A stretch of 31,067 bases of DNA, taken from positions 1 through 31,067 of IMG/VR virus record IMGVR_UViG_3300037041_000610; one strand, written 5' to 3'. The position numbers were made by a program, and so were the translations under genes. Shown piece after piece: positions 1 to 31,067 of the stretch (positions are counted from its first letter, which is position 1; each line of letters starts with the position of its first letter). A model generated the notes under the pieces. That model was not told where the DNA came from. It searched no databases and was given only the letters and a program-made list of their open reading frames with translations. The stretch comes from a virus.

Positions 1-127
1 CGAGTTCGTGTTTCGTTATATCATTCCCCGAAATGGCCTCGAGAATATGATACCAACCCCATCGGCTTAATCCTGAGGGGGTATAATCGTCGTCAGCTCC
101 GCCACCATCAGACGGTCCAAAGAGTCC
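1..127. repeat. Terminal direct repeat, left copy (circularisation overlap)
   Basis: These 127 bases are identical to the last 127 bases of the window (30941-31067), base for base by eye. An exact 127-bp overlap is what a k=127 de Bruijn assembler leaves on a circular contig, so I read it as an assembly overlap and not as a biological terminal repeat. It lies inside the tail-assembly chaperone gene, which is therefore split across the window ends. A short true direct terminal repeat cannot be excluded from sequence alone. Confidence 0.9.
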
Positions 128-657
128 AACGAATTGTTGACTAATTCGGCGCCGATACTCGAAAAAAAAAGCAAGCCCCCTTGAATGCGATCCATCGTTA
201 GCGCGTTAATCGCGTGCATGTACTTTTTAACGTTGGATGAATCGTATTTAACGAGGTTATAATAATCCCCAACCTGCTCGGAAATGGGGCGGTAAATTAT
301 CGCCGCGAGTTGCGGGAGGTTCGTGTAATCCGTTTCGCCATTCGTAAGCCAAATCGATTTCGAAAGTTGATCCAAGTCAACATGCTCGCGGAATGTCATG
401 TTATTAATATCAGGAATAAAGCCCAGCTTAACCCCCTCGACGGTCACTGTCGGCGCGTGGGTATCCTTTCCCGTTATGCAAGCGGTCGAAAACAAATCGA
501 TAACCGTTTGCACCGTTTCGGCCTTGAGGCCCTCGCAATATTCGCGGCTTTTGTTAATGGCAATCATCGCGCGTTCGGTATCGTCGGCGGCCGTTTCAAA
601 ATCGACGAACCGCTTTAACGTTATTTGGTCGGCGCTTACGGGAATATACAGTTTCAT
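67..657 (-). CDS. Tail assembly chaperone, zero-frame (short, gpG-like) product
   Basis: This 196-residue protein is read as the short form of a phage tail-assembly chaperone, which in siphoviruses coats the tape measure before the tube polymerises and is absent from the virion. Residues about 81-165 run from a FIPDINNMTF segment through a YRPI segment to an I-x-G-G-L-L-F-F motif, a layout I recall from chaperone-like proteins of Bacteroidota phages. The strongest evidence is the slippery T-TTT-TTT heptamer at codons 164-165, 31 codons before the zero-frame stop, with a long open -1 frame that continues past the window start into 30840-30940. The ATG shares ATGA with the small terminase stop. 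Unusually, the gene is separated from the tape measure by four large genes and one small one. The assignment rests on the frameshift architecture more than on remembered similarity. Confidence 0.72.
   Translation of the reverse strand: MKLYIPVSADQITLKRFVDFETAADDTERAMIAINKSREYCEGLKAETVQTVIDLFSTACITGKDTHAPTVTVEGVKLGFIPDINNMTFREHVDLDQLSKSIWLTNGETDYTNLPQLAAIIYRPISEQVGDYYNLVKYDSSNVKKYMHAINALTMDRIQGGLLFFSSIGAELVNNSLDSLDRLMVAELTTIIPPQD
162..170 (-). other. Probable programmed -1 ribosomal frameshift site (U9 run)
   Basis: On the minus strand the mRNA reads CUUUUUUUUUCGAG. In the chaperone frame the codons are CUU UUU UUU UCG, which contain the canonical X-XXY-YYZ heptamer U-UUU-UUU. A single -1 slip after codon 165 enters a frame that begins F-E-Y-R-R-R and stays open for 87 codons to a TGA at 30840-30842 on the circular molecule. 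The predicted fusion is 252 residues (165 + 87). This matches the G/GT arrangement of lambda and most siphoviruses. Confidence 0.72.
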
Positions 658-3370: not shown

Positions 3371-3542
3371 ACTCAATAACCTAATTTCTGAAACCTTTGG
3401 AACCCGAAATGAATTCGCCCTTAAAATGAAGGTTTCCCGTTGGACTGCTTACCGTTGGCTCGATAACCCCGAAAGGATGGATTTAAAGGCTTTAAAACGC
3501 CTCGCAAAGCTCACGGGTAAACCTTTAACCGAACTCGTTTAA
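3357..3542 (+). CDS. Cro/XRE-like HTH DNA-binding protein
   Basis: This 61-residue protein is little more than a helix-turn-helix: NEFALKMKVSRWTAYRWL followed by ALKRLAKLTGKPLTELV. This layout fits small Cro-like regulators. I chose the ATG at 3357 over a TTG upstream. It lies between the two promoters that share the GTAGC-A6-GCTAC-type palindrome, so it is the obvious candidate to bind that palindrome; this is an inference. Its TAA overlaps the terminase ATG as TAATG. With no integrase present, an early-to-late switch is more likely than a lysogeny switch. Confidence 0.65.
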   Translation: MNSDKLNNLISETFGTRNEFALKMKVSRWTAYRWLDNPERMDLKALKRLAKLTGKPLTELV

Positions 3543-4837
3543 TGGTTACTTTTTTACCCAAGCAAATCGAATGCTTAAACGCCCTCGGGTTGGATTCCCC
3601 CGCCGAGGTTGTTTTATTCGGTGGAGCCGCTGGCGGGGCGAAGTCGTTCACGGGTTGCGCGTGGCAAATCCAACGCCGTTTAAAATACCCGAAAACGAGG
3701 GGGCTTATTGGCCGCTCGAAACTCGACACCCTGAAAAAAACGACCCTAAAAACTTTTTTCGAGGTTGCTCAGCTATTCGGACTCCGAGCGAATGAACATT
3801 ATCAGTTTAACGCACAATCGAACGTTATCACGTTTTACAATGGCTCGGAAATCATTCTCAAGGATTTGTTTTCGTACCCGTCCGACCCCTCGTTTGATTC
3901 CCTCGGGTCGCTAGAAATTACCGACGCCTTTATCGACGAATGTAGCCAGGTTAGTAAAAAAGCCGTGGACATCGTTAGAAGCCGTATCCGTTACAAACTG
4001 AGGGAATTCGATTTAAGCCCGAAAACCTTATTAACGTGTAACCCGTCGAAAGGTTGGTTATATAACGAAATTTATGCCCCGTGGCGGGCTCAAAACCTGC
4101 CCGCGTTTATTTCCTTTATACCCTCAAGGGTTAGCGATAACCCCCACCTCCCAGCAACATACGCCGAGACTTTGGCGCGGTTGCCTGAGATGGATCGTAA
4201 ACGCTTGCTTGAGGGCGATTGGGATTACGACGAAACCGCCGACGCCCTTTTCTTAACCGACGACATCCTGAGGGCTTTTCGCGAGCCCCAAAACGACGGG
4301 GAACTGTATATAACGGCCGACGTCGCGCGCCTTGGAAAAGATAGGACCGTTATCGCCCTTTGGCGCGGCCTTTCGCTCATTCATATAACCGAACTCAGAA
4401 AAAAGAAAATCGACGAAACCGCCGCCGTTATTCGTGCAATGGCGGACCATCATAAAGTAAAACTTTCGAACGTGCTCGCCGATGCCGACGGGCTGGGCGC
4501 TGGGTTAGTGGATGTTTTAAAATGCCGCGAATTTCGTAACGGCTCAAGGGCTACTAAGCCCGAGCGGTTCGTTAACCTCAAGGCCGAATGCTTTTTTAAA
4601 CTCGCCGAATTTATCGAACTCAATAGAATGGTTTTCCCTCAGGCTAACCGCGACGTAATCGTTAAGGAGCTCGATTTAATCCGCCGCAAAAATCCCGATG
4701 GGGACGGAAAGTTAGCAGTAACAGGAAAGGAGGAAATCCAACGAACTCACGGTATGAGCCCCGATTACGCCGACGCTATCGCGATGCGGATGTATTTCGA
4801 GCTTTTCCCCAATTATGGGCGGTATTCTTACGCCTAA
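3542..4837 (+). CDS. terL: Terminase large subunit
   Basis: This 431-residue protein is the ATPase-nuclease of the DNA packaging motor, which docks on the portal. Visible features are Walker A GGAAGGAKS (27-35), Walker B ITDAFIDE (126-133, catalytic D-E), coupling motif LLTCNPS (163-169) and a C-terminal RNase H-like nuclease with acidic residues in TADVARLGKDRT (D260), ADADGLG (D314/D316) and MSPDYADA (D408/D411). Length fits phage large terminases. It is co-directional with the HTH gene (TAATG overlap) and with replication genes, and it is on the opposite strand from the small subunit. A 111-base intergenic region with a new promoter follows it. Confidence 0.93.
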   Translation: MVTFLPKQIECLNALGLDSPAEVVLFGGAAGGAKSFTGCAWQIQRRLKYPKTRGLIGRSKLDTLKKTTLKTFFEVAQLFGLRANEHYQFNAQSNVITFYNGSEIILKDLFSYPSDPSFDSLGSLEITDAFIDECSQVSKKAVDIVRSRIRYKLREFDLSPKTLLTCNPSKGWLYNEIYAPWRAQNLPAFISFIPSRVSDNPHLPATYAETLARLPEMDRKRLLEGDWDYDETADALFLTDDILRAFREPQNDGELYITADVARLGKDRTVIALWRGLSLIHITELRKKKIDETAAVIRAMADHHKVKLSNVLADADGLGAGLVDVLKCREFRNGSRATKPERFVNLKAECFFKLAEFIELNRMVFPQANRDVIVKELDLIRRKNPDGDGKLAVTGKEEIQRTHGMSPDYADAIAMRMYFELFPNYGRYSYA

Positions 4838-20466: not shown

Positions 20467-20539
20467 TATATTTGTGACGTTACTAGTTTTCAGTGTTAAA
20501 ATATGGGTTAAGCCTCCAAACGTGGGGGCTTTTCTTTTT
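20467..20539 (+). ncRNA. Possible short plus-strand transcription unit (promoter box plus terminator)
   Basis: On the plus strand, opposite to all flanking genes, TATATTTG (20467-20474) is followed after about 35 bases by a hairpin AAGCCTCC/GGGGGCTT (20510-20531, one G-T pair) and the T-rich TTTTCTTTTTA. If the box is used, this would give an RNA of about 55 bases with no ORF. The -33 region is only T-rich, and the box overlaps the A-rich leader of the protease gene, so it may be chance. The hairpin can also act on the minus strand between the tape measure and protease. Confidence 0.3.
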
Positions 20540-22787
20540 ATAGTCGCGCCAAATCCTGAACCTTTGCCCGCGCCTCAAGTGAACTCGCCACGTCACCCGC
20601 GAGCACATATGCGGGCGTCGCTTGCTGAGGTTGGTTCTGAATATTAAACGCCGCCAGCGGGTTAAAATCGGGAACGGTTCCACCCGTCGCCGCCACGCCT
20701 TGAGCGCTTAGGCTTGGGACGCTAGTATTACTTCCACCACTTGGGGCGGGTGAACTGAATGTAGTGGCCTTAATCTTTGCCACGTTAGCCAATCCCGCCG
20801 CCACAGCTGCCGCCGCCGCGATAAATGCACGCGGTACGCTCGTGGGATCGCCAGGAATTAATTGGGAGGCGTAAGCCCCTTGCGCGGCTTTATACGTCTC
20901 AATACCCGTCTGAGCGATTTGGAGGGCTTTTTGGCGCTGAAATGCGGCCTTTTGGCTTTGCTGGCTTTTCCCCGCGAAAGCCTCGTTTAACGAAAGGAGG
21001 GTCGATACGGTATTTGTGGCGGCTTGGATTCGGGCGTCGCTTAATTGTTTCGCCTTATCCGCTTCCTTTTTGGCCTCATCCTCGCGTTTTTTCGTTTCCT
21101 CATCCCGATACTTTTGGCGGATTTCCCCCTCCTTAGTCAATAACTCGTTTTCGAGGTTGGCCGCATCAGCGCCCGCCGCCTTTAATATTTCGATTCGCTC
21201 GAAATATGAGTCTCTAAGCGCCTGTAATTCGCGGTCCTTTGCGCTTAACCCCGCTTGGAAATTTTGCTCCTCAAGCGCCTCAAGCTCGGCCGCTTCATTA
21301 ATTGCGTTTTGGCGGACTTGATCCGCGAGCGCCTTATCCTTTTCCGCTTGCTGGGCGAGTTCTAAATCCGAATATTTTTTTAATACCCCAAGGCGCTCGG
21401 CTTCCTTTTCCTCCGCGATTTGGTTTATTAATTTTTGATTGTTTCCCGCTTGGGTTTTTAACTTTTCATATTTTAAATCGAGTTGGCGGAGCTCCTTATC
21501 TTCATCACTCAAGCCCGCCTGAAAACGAGCCTCGCGGGCGTCCTTAATTGCCTGAGTTACCTCGGCCTCGTTTTGTTTAATTTGTTGGGCGCGTTGCTGG
21601 GCCGCTTGCTTTGCCTTTTCGATACGGTCGGCCTCCGCCTTTTCGGCATCTTCTCGAGCTTTTGCCACCCCCGCCGCTTCATCCTCGGCGCTTTTAATAT
21701 TAATCTCAGTATTTGCCGCGATAGCTTTGGCGCGTGCATCGAGTTGCTCTTTTGTTAAAAGCGTTCCAATTTTTTCGAGGTTATTGGCCTCGTTAATTAC
21801 CTTCTCATTTTCGGCTATTTCGAGTTTTCGATATTCGGCATTTATAGCCGCAACGTCCCCGCCTGTTTTCTGAGCGTTGGCCACCGCCAAACGGCGCGCG
21901 TTGTCGAGTTTTTTCTGATTCCCCTCGAGGTTCGCGATAGCTGAATCCACAGCATCAGCCGCCGCGACCGCCGTTAATCCGATAGCGTCGGTAAATCCTG
22001 TAATCGCATCTTTGACAAATCCAACGACCTTACCAATCGCCTCGAAAGCAATTCCAACGCCAGGAATGACGTTCGCGAGTTTATCGAAATTCGTTACGAT
22101 TAACGCGATGATGCCACCAATTAAAAAAATGGGGTTCGTTAATAACGCTTTTCCGAGATTTAAAACCGATTTTGTAAACGCCCCCGAGCCTTCCGTCGCA
22201 CCTGAGAAATTAAGCCCCTTAACGTTTTTCGCGAGCCCGTTAATACTATCAGCGGCCCCCGCGAAATCGAGCGACCCGAGGCGGCTTTGGAGGTTCCTTA
22301 AATTATTCCCCGCACTTTCGAAAGCAGGCCCAGCGTTGGCCCCGATTTCCTCGTTAAAATCCTTTTGCGCGTCCTTTAATTGCTCGAGCCGCGTTTTTAG
22401 TTGCTGATATTCCGCCGAGGTTTTCGGTAGGTTAGTAGTTTGGAGCTCATTCGTTAAATCCTTTATTTGCTGGCGGAAATTCTTAACGGGTTCCGTGGGT
22501 ACATTCGCCCCCAAATCATTCAAGCGCCCTTTTAATTCGTCGACGCTTTGGCTAACCACTTTCGAGGAGCCTCCGAGTTCTTTGTATTGTAATGCGAGCT
22601 CAGTCCATTCGCGCGAGCTTGGATCAACTGAAGCTAATTGTTTTTTAAGGTCGCCGACCTGCTGGGCCCAACCCTGAGCCGACGCCCCCGCCTCGTTAAT
22701 GGCGCCCGTGAGGTTGTCGATACTTTTGGTAGCGCCCGAATCGTCGACCGTTAAAACTACTTGAGCTTTTAAATTTTCCTCAGCCAT
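20538..22787 (-). CDS. Tail tape measure protein
   Basis: This 749-residue protein sets tail length and is ejected with the DNA. It is long and helical with coiled coils, has a hydrophobic segment (PIFLIGGIIALIVTNF, residues about 219-234) and a Gly/Ala-rich stretch after it, and extended Glu/Lys/Gln/Ala-rich coils from about 290 to 580. It contains an internal repeat: FQAGLS-x-x-D-x-E-L near residues 422 and 510, a period of 88. The C-terminal part has Ala-rich helices and a Ser/Pro-rich region. At about 0.15 nm per residue the tail would be near 110 nm. It is downstream of the tail-tip genes, the reverse of the usual order. Confidence 0.88.
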   Translation of the reverse strand: MAEENLKAQVVLTVDDSGATKSIDNLTGAINEAGASAQGWAQQVGDLKKQLASVDPSSREWTELALQYKELGGSSKVVSQSVDELKGRLNDLGANVPTEPVKNFRQQIKDLTNELQTTNLPKTSAEYQQLKTRLEQLKDAQKDFNEEIGANAGPAFESAGNNLRNLQSRLGSLDFAGAADSINGLAKNVKGLNFSGATEGSGAFTKSVLNLGKALLTNPIFLIGGIIALIVTNFDKLANVIPGVGIAFEAIGKVVGFVKDAITGFTDAIGLTAVAAADAVDSAIANLEGNQKKLDNARRLAVANAQKTGGDVAAINAEYRKLEIAENEKVINEANNLEKIGTLLTKEQLDARAKAIAANTEINIKSAEDEAAGVAKAREDAEKAEADRIEKAKQAAQQRAQQIKQNEAEVTQAIKDAREARFQAGLSDEDKELRQLDLKYEKLKTQAGNNQKLINQIAEEKEAERLGVLKKYSDLELAQQAEKDKALADQVRQNAINEAAELEALEEQNFQAGLSAKDRELQALRDSYFERIEILKAAGADAANLENELLTKEGEIRQKYRDEETKKREDEAKKEADKAKQLSDARIQAATNTVSTLLSLNEAFAGKSQQSQKAAFQRQKALQIAQTGIETYKAAQGAYASQLIPGDPTSVPRAFIAAAAAVAAGLANVAKIKATTFSSPAPSGGSNTSVPSLSAQGVAATGGTVPDFNPLAAFNIQNQPQQATPAYVLAGDVASSLEARAKVQDLARL

Positions 22788-27709: not shown

Positions 27710-28234
27710 TTATTTAATGTATTTATCGGCCTTTAGTCGAGCCTGTTTAAATATTTCTTTCTGATAAAATAAACGGAATTCCTTACCGCTTTTTCTAAAT
27801 TCATCTTGGAACGCGTCGCGCATGTAATCGATTCCAACGATGCCACGGGTTCCGATTCGGCGAGCCATTCTCGCGGCTTCCCAAAGTTTCGTTTTTTGGT
27901 TATCTGATTTAAACAAACTTTTCGCTTTCATCCAATCGTAAATCGGCGAAACGGGCGGCCACGTTTTCGGGTCGTTATTTGGGCGGCGTCCCTTTTCGAT
28001 AACGTCGGCGTAGTTACGTGTGGGGTCGTTTGGCTTAACTCCAAACCATTGTAATATTTGCGGGCCTCGTTTGAAATATCCCCAAGTTAACGCGGCCAAT
28101 AAATTACCCCGATAAACACGGTTAACGGACCGCCCGCGAATGGTGCGTTTCTTTCTTAGATTCGCTTGAGCGCGTTTAATTACTCGCGCCCCGAATTCAT
28201 CTAAAACGGGTTTATATGTTTCGAGTTTTGCCAT
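27710..28234 (-). CDS. HK97 gp10-like neck / tail-completion protein
   Basis: This 174-residue basic protein has an N-terminal helix with many Arg/Lys (AQANLRKKRTIRGRSVNRVY), then NYADVIEKGRRPNN and PPVSPIYDWMKAKSLF, and ends with IDYMRDAFQDEFRKSGKEF. The Y-A-x-x-x-x-x-G-R-x-P...I-x-x-W-M pattern is one I recall from HK97 gp10-type head-tail joining proteins. The ATG overlaps the upstream stop as TAATG. It would sit at the neck and help attach tail to head. Confidence 0.65.
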   Translation of the reverse strand: MAKLETYKPVLDEFGARVIKRAQANLRKKRTIRGRSVNRVYRGNLLAALTWGYFKRGPQILQWFGVKPNDPTRNYADVIEKGRRPNNDPKTWPPVSPIYDWMKAKSLFKSDNQKTKLWEAARMARRIGTRGIVGIDYMRDAFQDEFRKSGKEFRLFYQKEIFKQARLKADKYIK

Positions 28235-30843
28235 TATAATACCTCTGAATATTCAAGAACGCTGCCCGCTCTTACTGTTAAGTTACCACCGACTGAGCAT
28301 CGAAAGCGAATTGTCCATGTACCTGATGCGCTTACCTTCACTATGCCGTCGGCCGTAGCCAATCCGTTACTTGTTACGACTACGTTTGTACCGCTATCGT
28401 ATGTAACTTGATTACTCACCGCGTTAGCCGTCGCGTTTGTTGTTATCGTAAATCGCGAGTTATTAAGCGTCGTAGCTGGGCCGTTGGTTGAAAACATTCC
28501 CGTCCCTGAAACGGCGCCGAAACTAATCGTCGCGCGCCATTTGTACGTTTTACCCGCCGTAACCGCAAAGCTCAAGCCCGTGACGTCCTCGAAAGTCGTT
28601 CCAACGTTTACCACGTTCGAAGCCACAACGAGCGTAATATCCGAGCCGAGCGAAAGGTCGGTTTTCAACTCCGCCAGGGTCAAAGCCGCGACCGTATTAT
28701 CGGCGTTTATTCTGAGGTATCGAACCGCGCTCGGGTTCGGAAGCGTGGCGAGGTTGGTCCCAACCGTAGTTAATCCAATAGAATTTTGTTTACTATTGAA
28801 CGTCGACCAATCCGCACTTGATAACGCGCCCCGATTTGCCGCGCTCGCCGTTGGTAGATTAAACGTGTGAACGCTTGCCGCTGAGTTGATCGCGAAATCC
28901 GTCCCCGCCGTTCCCGTGGTTAGGCTTTGCACCTGAGCCGTTAAACTGTTTAACGCCGTTATGCCTGTGCTAAACGTCGTCGTTATTTCGCTGAGGTGAG
29001 GGCCCTCAGTGTGGAGCGTTAACGTTCGTCCGCTCGTATTTACAAAAATTCGGATAGCTATCCTATCGCTCGCAGTTAGAACCGTAGCGGGCACGCTTAT
29101 AACCGACGTATATAAATCAATTACGGTCCCCGCCGTAATGCCCTCGGGGTTGGCCGAGTTGCTTGCGATTAACGTTAACGTCACTCCATTATATTTATAT
29201 AATTCAATATAAAAAGAGGGATTTCCCCCACTGCTTGACGCGCTAAAAAACGTTTCGAAATGCCAATTTCCCGAGGGGATTAAAAGTAAAGCGGGGTCGT
29301 TTATATCCGTAATAAATTGAGCTATGTATCCATTTCCCGCCCCGTTAGTTCGAACGAAATCCGTTCCCGTACCTATGATAGCCGTTTTACTTAATTGATG
29401 AAATGTAGCGCCTCCAATAGTGCCTTGCGCAACGCTACCGTTTAAATAATAATTAACTGAGGCGCCCCCGCCGCCGCCCGTTGGAAAGTTAGCGAGCGTT
29501 CCGTCGCCCCGTACATATTGCGACGCTACACCCGCGCCCGTTACCGCAAGCGTTCCCGCCGTGGTTACGGGTGAGCCTGCCACCGTGAACGCGCTCGGCA
29601 TGGTTAGGCCTACCGACGTAACCGAACCGCCACCGCCCACCGTGGTAAATTCCACCTCACCCGTTCCCGCGTTGCTGAGCGTGAGCACTTGGCCGACCGT
29701 AGCCGTCGCGTCGTTTACGTTTGGCGTTTTAAGGCGGGCCGAATTCGGGAAAAGCGTTAACGAGGTTTCATTAGCCGAGGCCGATTCGCTCGCGCTTATT
29801 GCGGCCTTTGTGGTATCGACGCTAACCTGAGTTTGAGTCGTACCCGTTACCTTTTGCAACGTTACCGAAGCGCTGTCAATACCCAGCGACGCGTCCGAAC
29901 TTACGTTAATATCAACTTTTGAAGTTGAGTTAACGGTAAAGTTTGACGTGCCGTCAATAGTTAGCCCGAATGTGTTGCAATCAATAGTGTTGTCAGAAGT
30001 TAATACAGGGTCGGTTGTTATAACATCTTGCAACCCCTGAGCCGTTGGAATGGCTGGGAACGTTTGGAGCGCCCCCGTTCCGTCGATGTAATCGCCCGAG
30101 GTTCCCGCCCCTGTAATCGCCAGGGTCCCCGCTCCCGTTATGGGCGATCCACTAACCGCAAAAGCCGAGGGGACCGTTAAGGCTACTGAGGTAACCGTCC
30201 CACCTCCGCCACCGCCTCCCGTTGAATTTATCGTAACGGTTCCGTTGCCATTATCTACTATCGTGACGTTGGTCCCTTGCTGCAAGTTGAGCAAACTTTG
30301 AAGCCCGTTGTTTACGCCGTTGGTTTGTAAGGTAATCCCAACCGCCACGCCCTCACCGCCTGAGCCTGAGCCCCCGATAGTGAAATCGGCGGGTATATCG
30401 CACGCGCTCCAATCCCAAGGAACGGAAAGCGTTAATTGAAGATTTACGCCTACGAGAGTATGACTAAACTCATTTATAAAAACCTCGATACTCGCGCCCC
30501 CATCCAACTCCACGAACGGCCCGAAAACGATTTGCCCGTTTTGAACCTCAGCCAACAAATCCTCGGCGAGCTTAATACAGTCCGAAATACATTCGCGCTG
30601 ATATTCGGCGGGCGTTTCCTTATCCCTCGGGAGGTCGGCGAAGATTATTACGAACGAATAAAGGCGCGTCCCCGCTCGTGGTTCCACCTCCACGGGTAAA
30701 ACGTGCATCCAAGGAAACTCGACCTCCTTTTCAATGTCGATATTGGACAAATCCCCATGCGAGAAACCCTTAATTAAAAAATGGGCCTCGGCGAACGCTC
30801 GGAACCTATCAATTAAAACGTTATAACTTATTTGCGGTATCAT
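28234..30843 (-). CDS. Tail-terminator-like domain fused to a fibre / receptor-binding region
   Basis: This 869-residue protein is chimeric. Residues 1-150 (MIPQISYNVLIDRFRAFAEA ... FSHTLVGVNLQLTLSVPWDW) look like a small neck or tail-terminator protein that is usually a gene of its own here. From 155 it becomes a fibre: Gly-rich linkers, two copies of a roughly 58-residue repeat (209-266 and 403-460), the RGALSSADWSTFNSKQ motif common in tail fibres, and a C-terminal strand-rich domain of about 120 residues (TTFEDVTGLSFAVTAGKTY ... GGNLTVRAGSVLEYSEV) typical of fibre ends. The ATG overlaps the frameshifted chaperone stop as ATGA. A neck whisker or collar fibre is the simplest reading. Confidence 0.72.
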   Translation of the reverse strand: MIPQISYNVLIDRFRAFAEAHFLIKGFSHGDLSNIDIEKEVEFPWMHVLPVEVEPRAGTRLYSFVIIFADLPRDKETPAEYQRECISDCIKLAEDLLAEVQNGQIVFGPFVELDGGASIEVFINEFSHTLVGVNLQLTLSVPWDWSACDIPADFTIGGSGSGGEGVAVGITLQTNGVNNGLQSLLNLQQGTNVTIVDNGNGTVTINSTGGGGGGGTVTSVALTVPSAFAVSGSPITGAGTLAITGAGTSGDYIDGTGALQTFPAIPTAQGLQDVITTDPVLTSDNTIDCNTFGLTIDGTSNFTVNSTSKVDINVSSDASLGIDSASVTLQKVTGTTQTQVSVDTTKAAISASESASANETSLTLFPNSARLKTPNVNDATATVGQVLTLSNAGTGEVEFTTVGGGGSVTSVGLTMPSAFTVAGSPVTTAGTLAVTGAGVASQYVRGDGTLANFPTGGGGGASVNYYLNGSVAQGTIGGATFHQLSKTAIIGTGTDFVRTNGAGNGYIAQFITDINDPALLLIPSGNWHFETFFSASSSGGNPSFYIELYKYNGVTLTLIASNSANPEGITAGTVIDLYTSVISVPATVLTASDRIAIRIFVNTSGRTLTLHTEGPHLSEITTTFSTGITALNSLTAQVQSLTTGTAGTDFAINSAASVHTFNLPTASAANRGALSSADWSTFNSKQNSIGLTTVGTNLATLPNPSAVRYLRINADNTVAALTLAELKTDLSLGSDITLVVASNVVNVGTTFEDVTGLSFAVTAGKTYKWRATISFGAVSGTGMFSTNGPATTLNNSRFTITTNATANAVSNQVTYDSGTNVVVTSNGLATADGIVKVSASGTWTIRFRCSVGGNLTVRAGSVLEYSEVL
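29464..29637 (-). repeat. Fibre repeat, copy 2 (residues 403-460)
   Basis: The translated unit is GGGGSVTSVGLTMPSAFTVA, then GSPVTTAGTLAVTGAGVAS, a Y-x-x-G-x-G-x-L-x-x-F-P segment and a Gly-rich end. It matches copy 1 (30046-30219) closely at protein level. These V-T-S-V...S-G-S-P...A-G-T-L repeats are common in phage tail fibres. Confidence 0.7.
30046..30219 (-). repeat. Fibre repeat, copy 1 (residues 209-266)
   Basis: The unit starts with a Gly-rich run and TVTSVALTVPSAFAVSGSP, then ITGAGTLAITGAGTSG, and ends Y-x-x-G-x-G-x-L-x-x-F-P. Copy 2 is about 580 bases further along the gene. The DNA copies are similar enough to recombine. Confidence 0.7.
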
Positions 30844-31067
30844 TTTCTAAAAGTCGTTTTCATTATTCGCGTTTGCTCACTGCTAAAATCCCTCATGTAA
30901 CTCAGGTGCGTAAAAATCGCCGTCGCTGGGGTATCTAAAACGAGTTCGTGTTTCGTTATATCATTCCCCGAAATGGCCTCGAGAATATGATACCAACCCC
31001 ATCGGCTTAATCCTGAGGGGGTATAATCGTCGTCAGCTCCGCCACCATCAGACGGTCCAAAGAGTCC
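30840..31067 (-). CDS. Chaperone -1 frame extension (gpT-like), split by the contig ends
   Basis: This is the 3' part of the -1 frame entered at the slippery site at 162-170; because of the 127-bp overlap it appears here as an ORF open at the right end. The extension is 87 residues. It contains a Gly/Asp-rich spacer (GPSDGGGADDDYTPSG) and a compact domain, RWGWYHILEAISGNDITKHE, then FTHLSYMRDFSSEQTRI. A W-G-W...G-D-I-T...L-x-Y-x-R/K pattern is what I recall from T-domains of chaperone fusions. Its TGA (30840-30842) overlaps the ATG of the next gene as ATGA, which strongly supports this frame being translated. Confidence 0.72.
   Translation of the reverse strand, partial: GLFGPSDGGGADDDYTPSGLSRWGWYHILEAISGNDITKHELVLDTPATAIFTHLSYMRDFSSEQTRIMKTTFRK
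30941..31067. repeat. Terminal direct repeat, right copy (circularisation overlap)
   Basis: Identical to bases 1-127. Removing one copy gives a 30,940-bp circle in which the chaperone frameshift region is continuous. Confidence 0.9.

Follow-up and report, generated by a model that had tools for sequence, protein, structure and literature searches.

A run of nine uridines near the 3' end of one open reading frame (ORF) raises a question about the phage genome studied here: does this gene yield two proteins, a short product (G) and a longer one (GT) reached by a -1 frameshift, and do these two act as a tail assembly chaperone? The window, by which we mean the whole 31,067-nucleotide stretch of IMG/VR record IMGVR_UViG_3300037041_000610, had received an initial annotation that proposed just this and held that the second half of the gene was hidden by the contig break.

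The slip site and the two reading frames

The two ends of the window share a 127-bp direct repeat, and thus the molecule is circular, with a circle of 30,940 bp. When the locus was re-read on this circle, every number in the initial annotation proved correct: the U9 run, the heptamer, the 87-codon -1 frame, its stop and the ATGA overlap (Table 1). The masking by the contig break was likewise borne out, as T is contiguous in relatives and on the circle. Within the T9 run, only U_UUU_UUU at 169-163 gives a heptamer in the correct phase. A -1 slip at this site joins 165 residues to 87 more, yielding a fusion of 252 amino acids whose G-T junction peptide reads LLFFFEYRRR. A small correction applies to the extent of the -1 frame, which is open already from 14 codons upstream of the slip.

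To judge the length of this frame, the 17 other genes of the window serve as a reference: a -1 frame open for 87 codons occurs at none of their 6,865 codon positions, and the median is 8. This result, combined with the retention of the features in relatives (described below), excludes chance. Elsewhere in the window, a terminase-like gene (3542-4837, plus strand) contains U_UUU_UUA in phase, and its -1 frame is open for 79 codons.

Table 1. Positions of the frameshifted gene and associated features in the window
Feature	Position	Strand	Basis or remark
Terminal direct repeat	1-127		Same sequence as 30941-31067; overlap left by assembly of a circle
G, 0-frame product, 196 aa, tail-assembly-chaperone-like	67-657	-	ORF; structure model, profile match and selection (see text)
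U9 run (T9 on the coding strand)	162-170	-	Seen in the sequence; codons CTT TTT TTT TCG
Slippery heptamer U_UUU_UUU, in phase (CUU UUU UUU)	163-169	-	Sequence and relatives
T domain, part 1, -1 frame after base 163 is read twice	1-163	-	Continues at the other end of the record
T domain, part 2, stop codon TGA ending at 30840	30840-31067	-	30941-31067 duplicates 1-127; selection past the G stop (see text)
Region coding in two frames, G tail in 0 and T in -1	67-163	-	Dip in pS (see text)
ATGA overlap of T stop and start of next gene (28234-30843)	30840-30843	-	Kept in 26 of 27 close relatives
Tape measure protein, expected partner	20538-22787	-	phrog_1538, E 8e-17; five genes downstream of the T stop

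Conservation among relatives

A scan of IMG/VR with the fusion as the query returned 33 relatives, and all 33 have the in-phase heptamer and a T domain in the -1 frame. More scans, together with one of GTDB contigs, brought the catalogue to 294 loci representing about 239 distinct G genes. The in-phase U_UUU_UUU is present in every one of these loci, and the -1 T frame extends for at least 60 codons in 289 of them; of the other five, four run off the end of their contig, and one (L143) has a premature T stop. Both features are kept in 26 close relatives and also in groups that are just 20-30% identical. The check suggested alongside the initial annotation, namely whether relatives keep the heptamer and the -1 frame, is therefore answered by some 290 relatives (239 distinct genes). 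The length of the run was 9 in 216 of the 239 distinct genes, 10 in 12 and 7 in 11; it was never 8. A codon-blind search for FFYHLGND gave 97 recognised family members, in all of which FF is encoded by TTT TTT and the run has exactly 9 T's; elsewhere in these genes, TTC makes up one third of Phe codons (TTT:TTC 1420:722).

Two loci were left out of the catalogue. Their slip runs are T11 (L330, near 2986) and T12 (L331, near 3490), and the frame relation is altered; in L330, G and T occupy one frame. These runs are either homopolymer errors or real length variants. By alignment scan, the family comprises at least 595 confirmed stretches, mostly from uncultivated phages, and the cultured members of the frameshifted family among those found infect a flavobacterium. 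Three members (L181, L182 and L183) reside in metagenome-assembled contigs titled Epsilonproteobacteria, Euryarchaeota and Pseudooceanicola, reflecting either binning error or a wider host range.

Selection on the two frames

We computed dN/dS and pS on nine close relatives. Before the slip, G had a dN/dS of 0.105. In the 31-codon overlap, pS fell from 0.57 to 0.18 in the 0 frame and to 0.23 in the -1 frame, a dip that is the mark of dual coding. Past the G stop, dN/dS was 0.147 in the -1 frame and above 1.4 in the other two; purifying selection acts there on the -1 frame only. In the L030-like group, which is more distant, pN/pS from the slip on was 0.22 in the -1 frame vs. 1.56 in the 0 frame. 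With the 0 frame thus unconstrained, the tail of the short product is effectively free in that group. In loci L029-L035 and L340-L417, the 0 frame stays open over T for about 62-89 codons past the slip, without protein-level constraint. Given the heptamer, the -1 frame and the selection observed in relatives, the conserved -1 frameshift and the G/GT design put forward initially hold.

One-ORF homologues, separate genes and homopolymer errors

Relatives that lack the heptamer would have counted against the initial annotation. Such relatives were encountered only at a distance, and in them G and T form one continuous ORF, an arrangement that supports the fusion. A single ORF of 274-301 aa is found in cultured Duneviridae (Ingeline, laban6-1, 2A and FPSV-F7) and in a Microcystis phage. 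Aligned by hhalign to the whole fusion, these one-ORF homologues gave a probability of 98.5 and an E-value of 3e-15, with 246 aligned columns that cover both G and T. Several proteins of 226-267 aa in BFVD, from uncultured phages, are matched by the models of G and T alike. A putative -1 heptamer in gp10 of Flavobacterium phage 6H was rejected, as 6H has an indel relative to the continuous ORF of 2A and FPSV-F7; its gp10 (L419, NC_021867.1 10047-10927) is a truncated form of their 293-aa ORF, and the truncation is probably an indel or a sequencing error.

These homologues bear on two other ways of reading the locus. T could be a gene in its own right that overlaps G and has its own start; indeed, gp39 of phage P12024S is annotated as its own gene, and some ATG lies between the slip and the GW motif in 65 of 229 distinct T's. 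However, no ATG, GTG or TTG precedes the WGWY/GW motif in 138 of the 229, and the same is true of the window T from the slip to its conserved WGWY. Moreover, the constraint on the -1 frame starts at the slip, and relatives join G and T in one ORF. We consider a separate T gene highly improbable. One might also suppose that a sequencing or assembly error in the homopolymer has split a single gene: nine-base runs are error-prone, the T11 locus reads as one frame and a split of this kind sets 6H apart from 2A and FPSV-F7. This reading is refuted by the concordance of about 290 loci from independent samples, all in the same phase, by the genes with a run of 7, which are less error-prone and have an identical frame relation, and by the dual-coding signature in the overlap, which requires both frames. 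Its probability is close to nil.

Slippage by the ribosome or by RNA polymerase

Bacterial RNA polymerase slips at high efficiency on 9 A or T residues (PMC5009743), which renders the U9 site ambiguous. The same two proteins could arise if the polymerase slipped on T9, adding one U or dropping two, such that part of the mRNA encoded GT. In keeping with this possibility, 228 of the 239 distinct genes have a run of 9 or 10, with the length of 8 missing, and the run is extended 5' when the next base is not T (TTT TTT TTT ATC/CTG). Transcriptional slippage would lead one to expect a homopolymer of at least 9 in all members, but 12 relatives in five to six independent lineages have a run of 7 along with the T frame, under the documented slippage length. 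Further, U_UUU_UUU is always in phase, a placement that RNA polymerase would not need, and the residues V/L/I/F before and Y/S/W after FF favour a run of 9 for protein reasons. Slippage by RNA polymerase as the source of GT is accordingly rather unlikely.

The runs of 7 carry most of the weight in this comparison. All 12 loci belong to the L030-like group, and in each the run is bounded as ACT/TCT/AGT/CGT, TTT TTT and then ACC/ACG/ATC. When run length is placed on the tree, six changes to 7 are needed, five of which are forced by well-supported branches; segment exchange between lineages would reduce the number of independent events. Every U9-to-U7 change leaves exactly the minimal heptamer, in phase, while the flanking sequence is free to vary. 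Repeated shrinkage to exactly 7 favours ribosomal slippage over slippage by RNA polymerase, and we infer from these sequences that the frameshift is ribosomal. Still, the lack of any run of 8 is unexplained, and slippage in transcription may contribute as well. U9 could be a dual-use site, at which both kinds of slippage feed GT in most lineages while only the ribosome does so in the U7 lineages; this idea strikes us as unlikely. Were it true, transcription would share in setting the G:GT ratio. We found no report in the literature of such control for a phage tail chaperone.

Downstream stem-loops or pseudoknots are common at -1 sites, yet lambda-type sites do not require them. Nine stretches, taken from eight genomes in several groups, showed no downstream stimulatory stem-loop beyond shuffled controls (fold z from -1.4 to +0.3). 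Lambda-type low-efficiency sites are likewise devoid of stable downstream RNA structure.

Identity of the protein pair

The label of tail assembly chaperone was examined by structure and by profile. The AlphaFold model of G had a pLDDT of 85.4; T was modelled as a helical domain with modest confidence (72.3). Among the PDB chains re-aligned to G with VIA-align, the top match was the HK97 tail assembly chaperone (2OB9) over 56 residues, with a Z of 3.5 that is weak and below the tool's trust level. Foldseek gave no significant match for G in the PDB (no E below 0.5). In BFVD, apart from unnamed relatives, the two matches named for this function were the tail assembly chaperones of Kitkat and ctCpR1 (probabilities of 0.63 and 0.87, respectively). 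Neither G nor T had a named match in Pfam, NCBIfam or PHROGs; G corresponds to phrog_32199 (E 1e-11) and the T of the P12024-like group to phrog_38404, both listed as of unknown function. A hit to phrog_166 ("tail protein") reached an E of 0.005 in just four of 27 members and was not counted. An hhalign comparison of the G profile with lambda gpG returned nothing.

The position of the gene is also informative. The phage is of the long-tailed type, and the gene belongs to its tail module, on the strand of the tape measure gene and upstream of it. A place immediately upstream of the tape measure is typical of tail chaperones, albeit not defining. Here, five genes and 8.05 kb separate the T stop (30840) from the tape measure (22787). 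The initial annotation was right about this distance, but its view that the linkage is broken in this phage needs amending, as the related groups that were examined show the separation too; P12024-like relatives have their candidate tape measure some 6 kb downstream. In Ingeline, the gene order is portal, adaptor, gp04, G-T, gp06, gp07 and tape measure, which places the fused homologue two genes ahead of the tape measure.

Where long-tailed phages make a tail-region product in two forms by a -1 shift, that product is characteristically a tail assembly chaperone. With the frameshift itself close to certain, and from this architecture, from gene order and position, from the in-frame fused homologue near a tape measure and from the weak fold matches, we conclude that the G/GT pair is very likely a tail assembly chaperone. 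The label given initially is therefore supported, although G and T are named by no curated profile. It is conceivable that the frameshift is real and that the pair, in its two forms, serves some other step of tail or neck morphogenesis: no profile supplies a name, the fold match to HK97 gp13 is weak and the gene adjoins those for terminase or connector proteins, at a distance from the tape measure. Against this stand the typical association of such two-form products with tail chaperones, the Ingeline homologue's location and the identity, as tail assembly chaperones, of the structural matches named for this function. We regard the non-chaperone identity as unlikely.

Proposed mechanism and significance

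Judged from sequence comparisons, a G/GT-type chaperone gene with a ribosomal -1 slip is in all likelihood the best explanation of this locus. Ribosomes in the G frame would mostly stop at 67, producing G. A minority, with P- and A-site tRNAs-Phe on UUU UUU, would slip back by one base, re-pair within U_UUU_UUU and go on to produce GT. Presumably, the slip needs no RNA structure. By analogy to lambda, many copies of G and a few of GT may bind the tape measure, and the T domain may recruit the tail-tube protein.

Very probably, these genes constitute a large unannotated family of frameshifted tail chaperones; the -1 mechanism has long been known from lambda, and its use in this family is newly recorded. 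A literature search found no paper joining tail assembly chaperone, Flavobacterium and frameshift, and for Bacteroidetes only a general GeneTack survey. The assignment would give a name to two proteins whose PHROGs entries carry no function. The repeated changes from U9 to U7 amount to a natural experiment on the requirements of a -1 slip site, and the sister families with a continuous G-T ORF offer a clean comparison for why tail chaperones need two forms.

Comparison with known systems

The window gene shares with gpG/gpGT of phage lambda a short ORF, a -1 slip near its 3' end, a C-terminal T domain in the -1 frame and the lack of an evident stimulatory RNA structure; the lambda T/H overlap also parallels the overlap of the window's T stop with the next start. 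In lambda, the frameshift yields gpG and gpGT in a ratio of 30:1 (PMC5009743). The window differs from lambda in its heptamer (U_UUU_UUU within U9), in the length of G (196 aa), in having no detectable sequence similarity and in a tape measure gene that is 8 kb away rather than adjacent.

HK97 gp13/gp13-14 (PDB 2OB9) is a frameshifted tail chaperone, annotated as "translated due to a -1 frameshift"; the same is proposed for the window. The fold match between gp13 and G is weak (residues 1-65, Z 3.5). Unlike the window gene, the HK97 pair is close to its tape measure, with one gene between.

Among the Duneviridae, Ingeline_1 gp05, laban6-1 gp17 and Flavobacterium phage 2A gp12 are homologous to the full fusion, but each is a continuous ORF (293-301 aa). 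Laban6-1 and Ingeline have an FF motif at the junction, as the window does, and differ from it in having no in-phase -1 heptamer there.

Nonlabens phages P12024S and P12024L (Inhavirus) encode, as gp38-gp39, a homologous G (27% identity) and T, with the same in-phase U_UUU_UUU in U9. Their genes, in contrast to the window's, directly follow the terminase large subunit gene and are annotated as two hypothetical proteins. In P12024S (L036, NC_018271.1 23136-23830), a single frameshifted gene accounts for both, gp38 being one half and gp39 the other.
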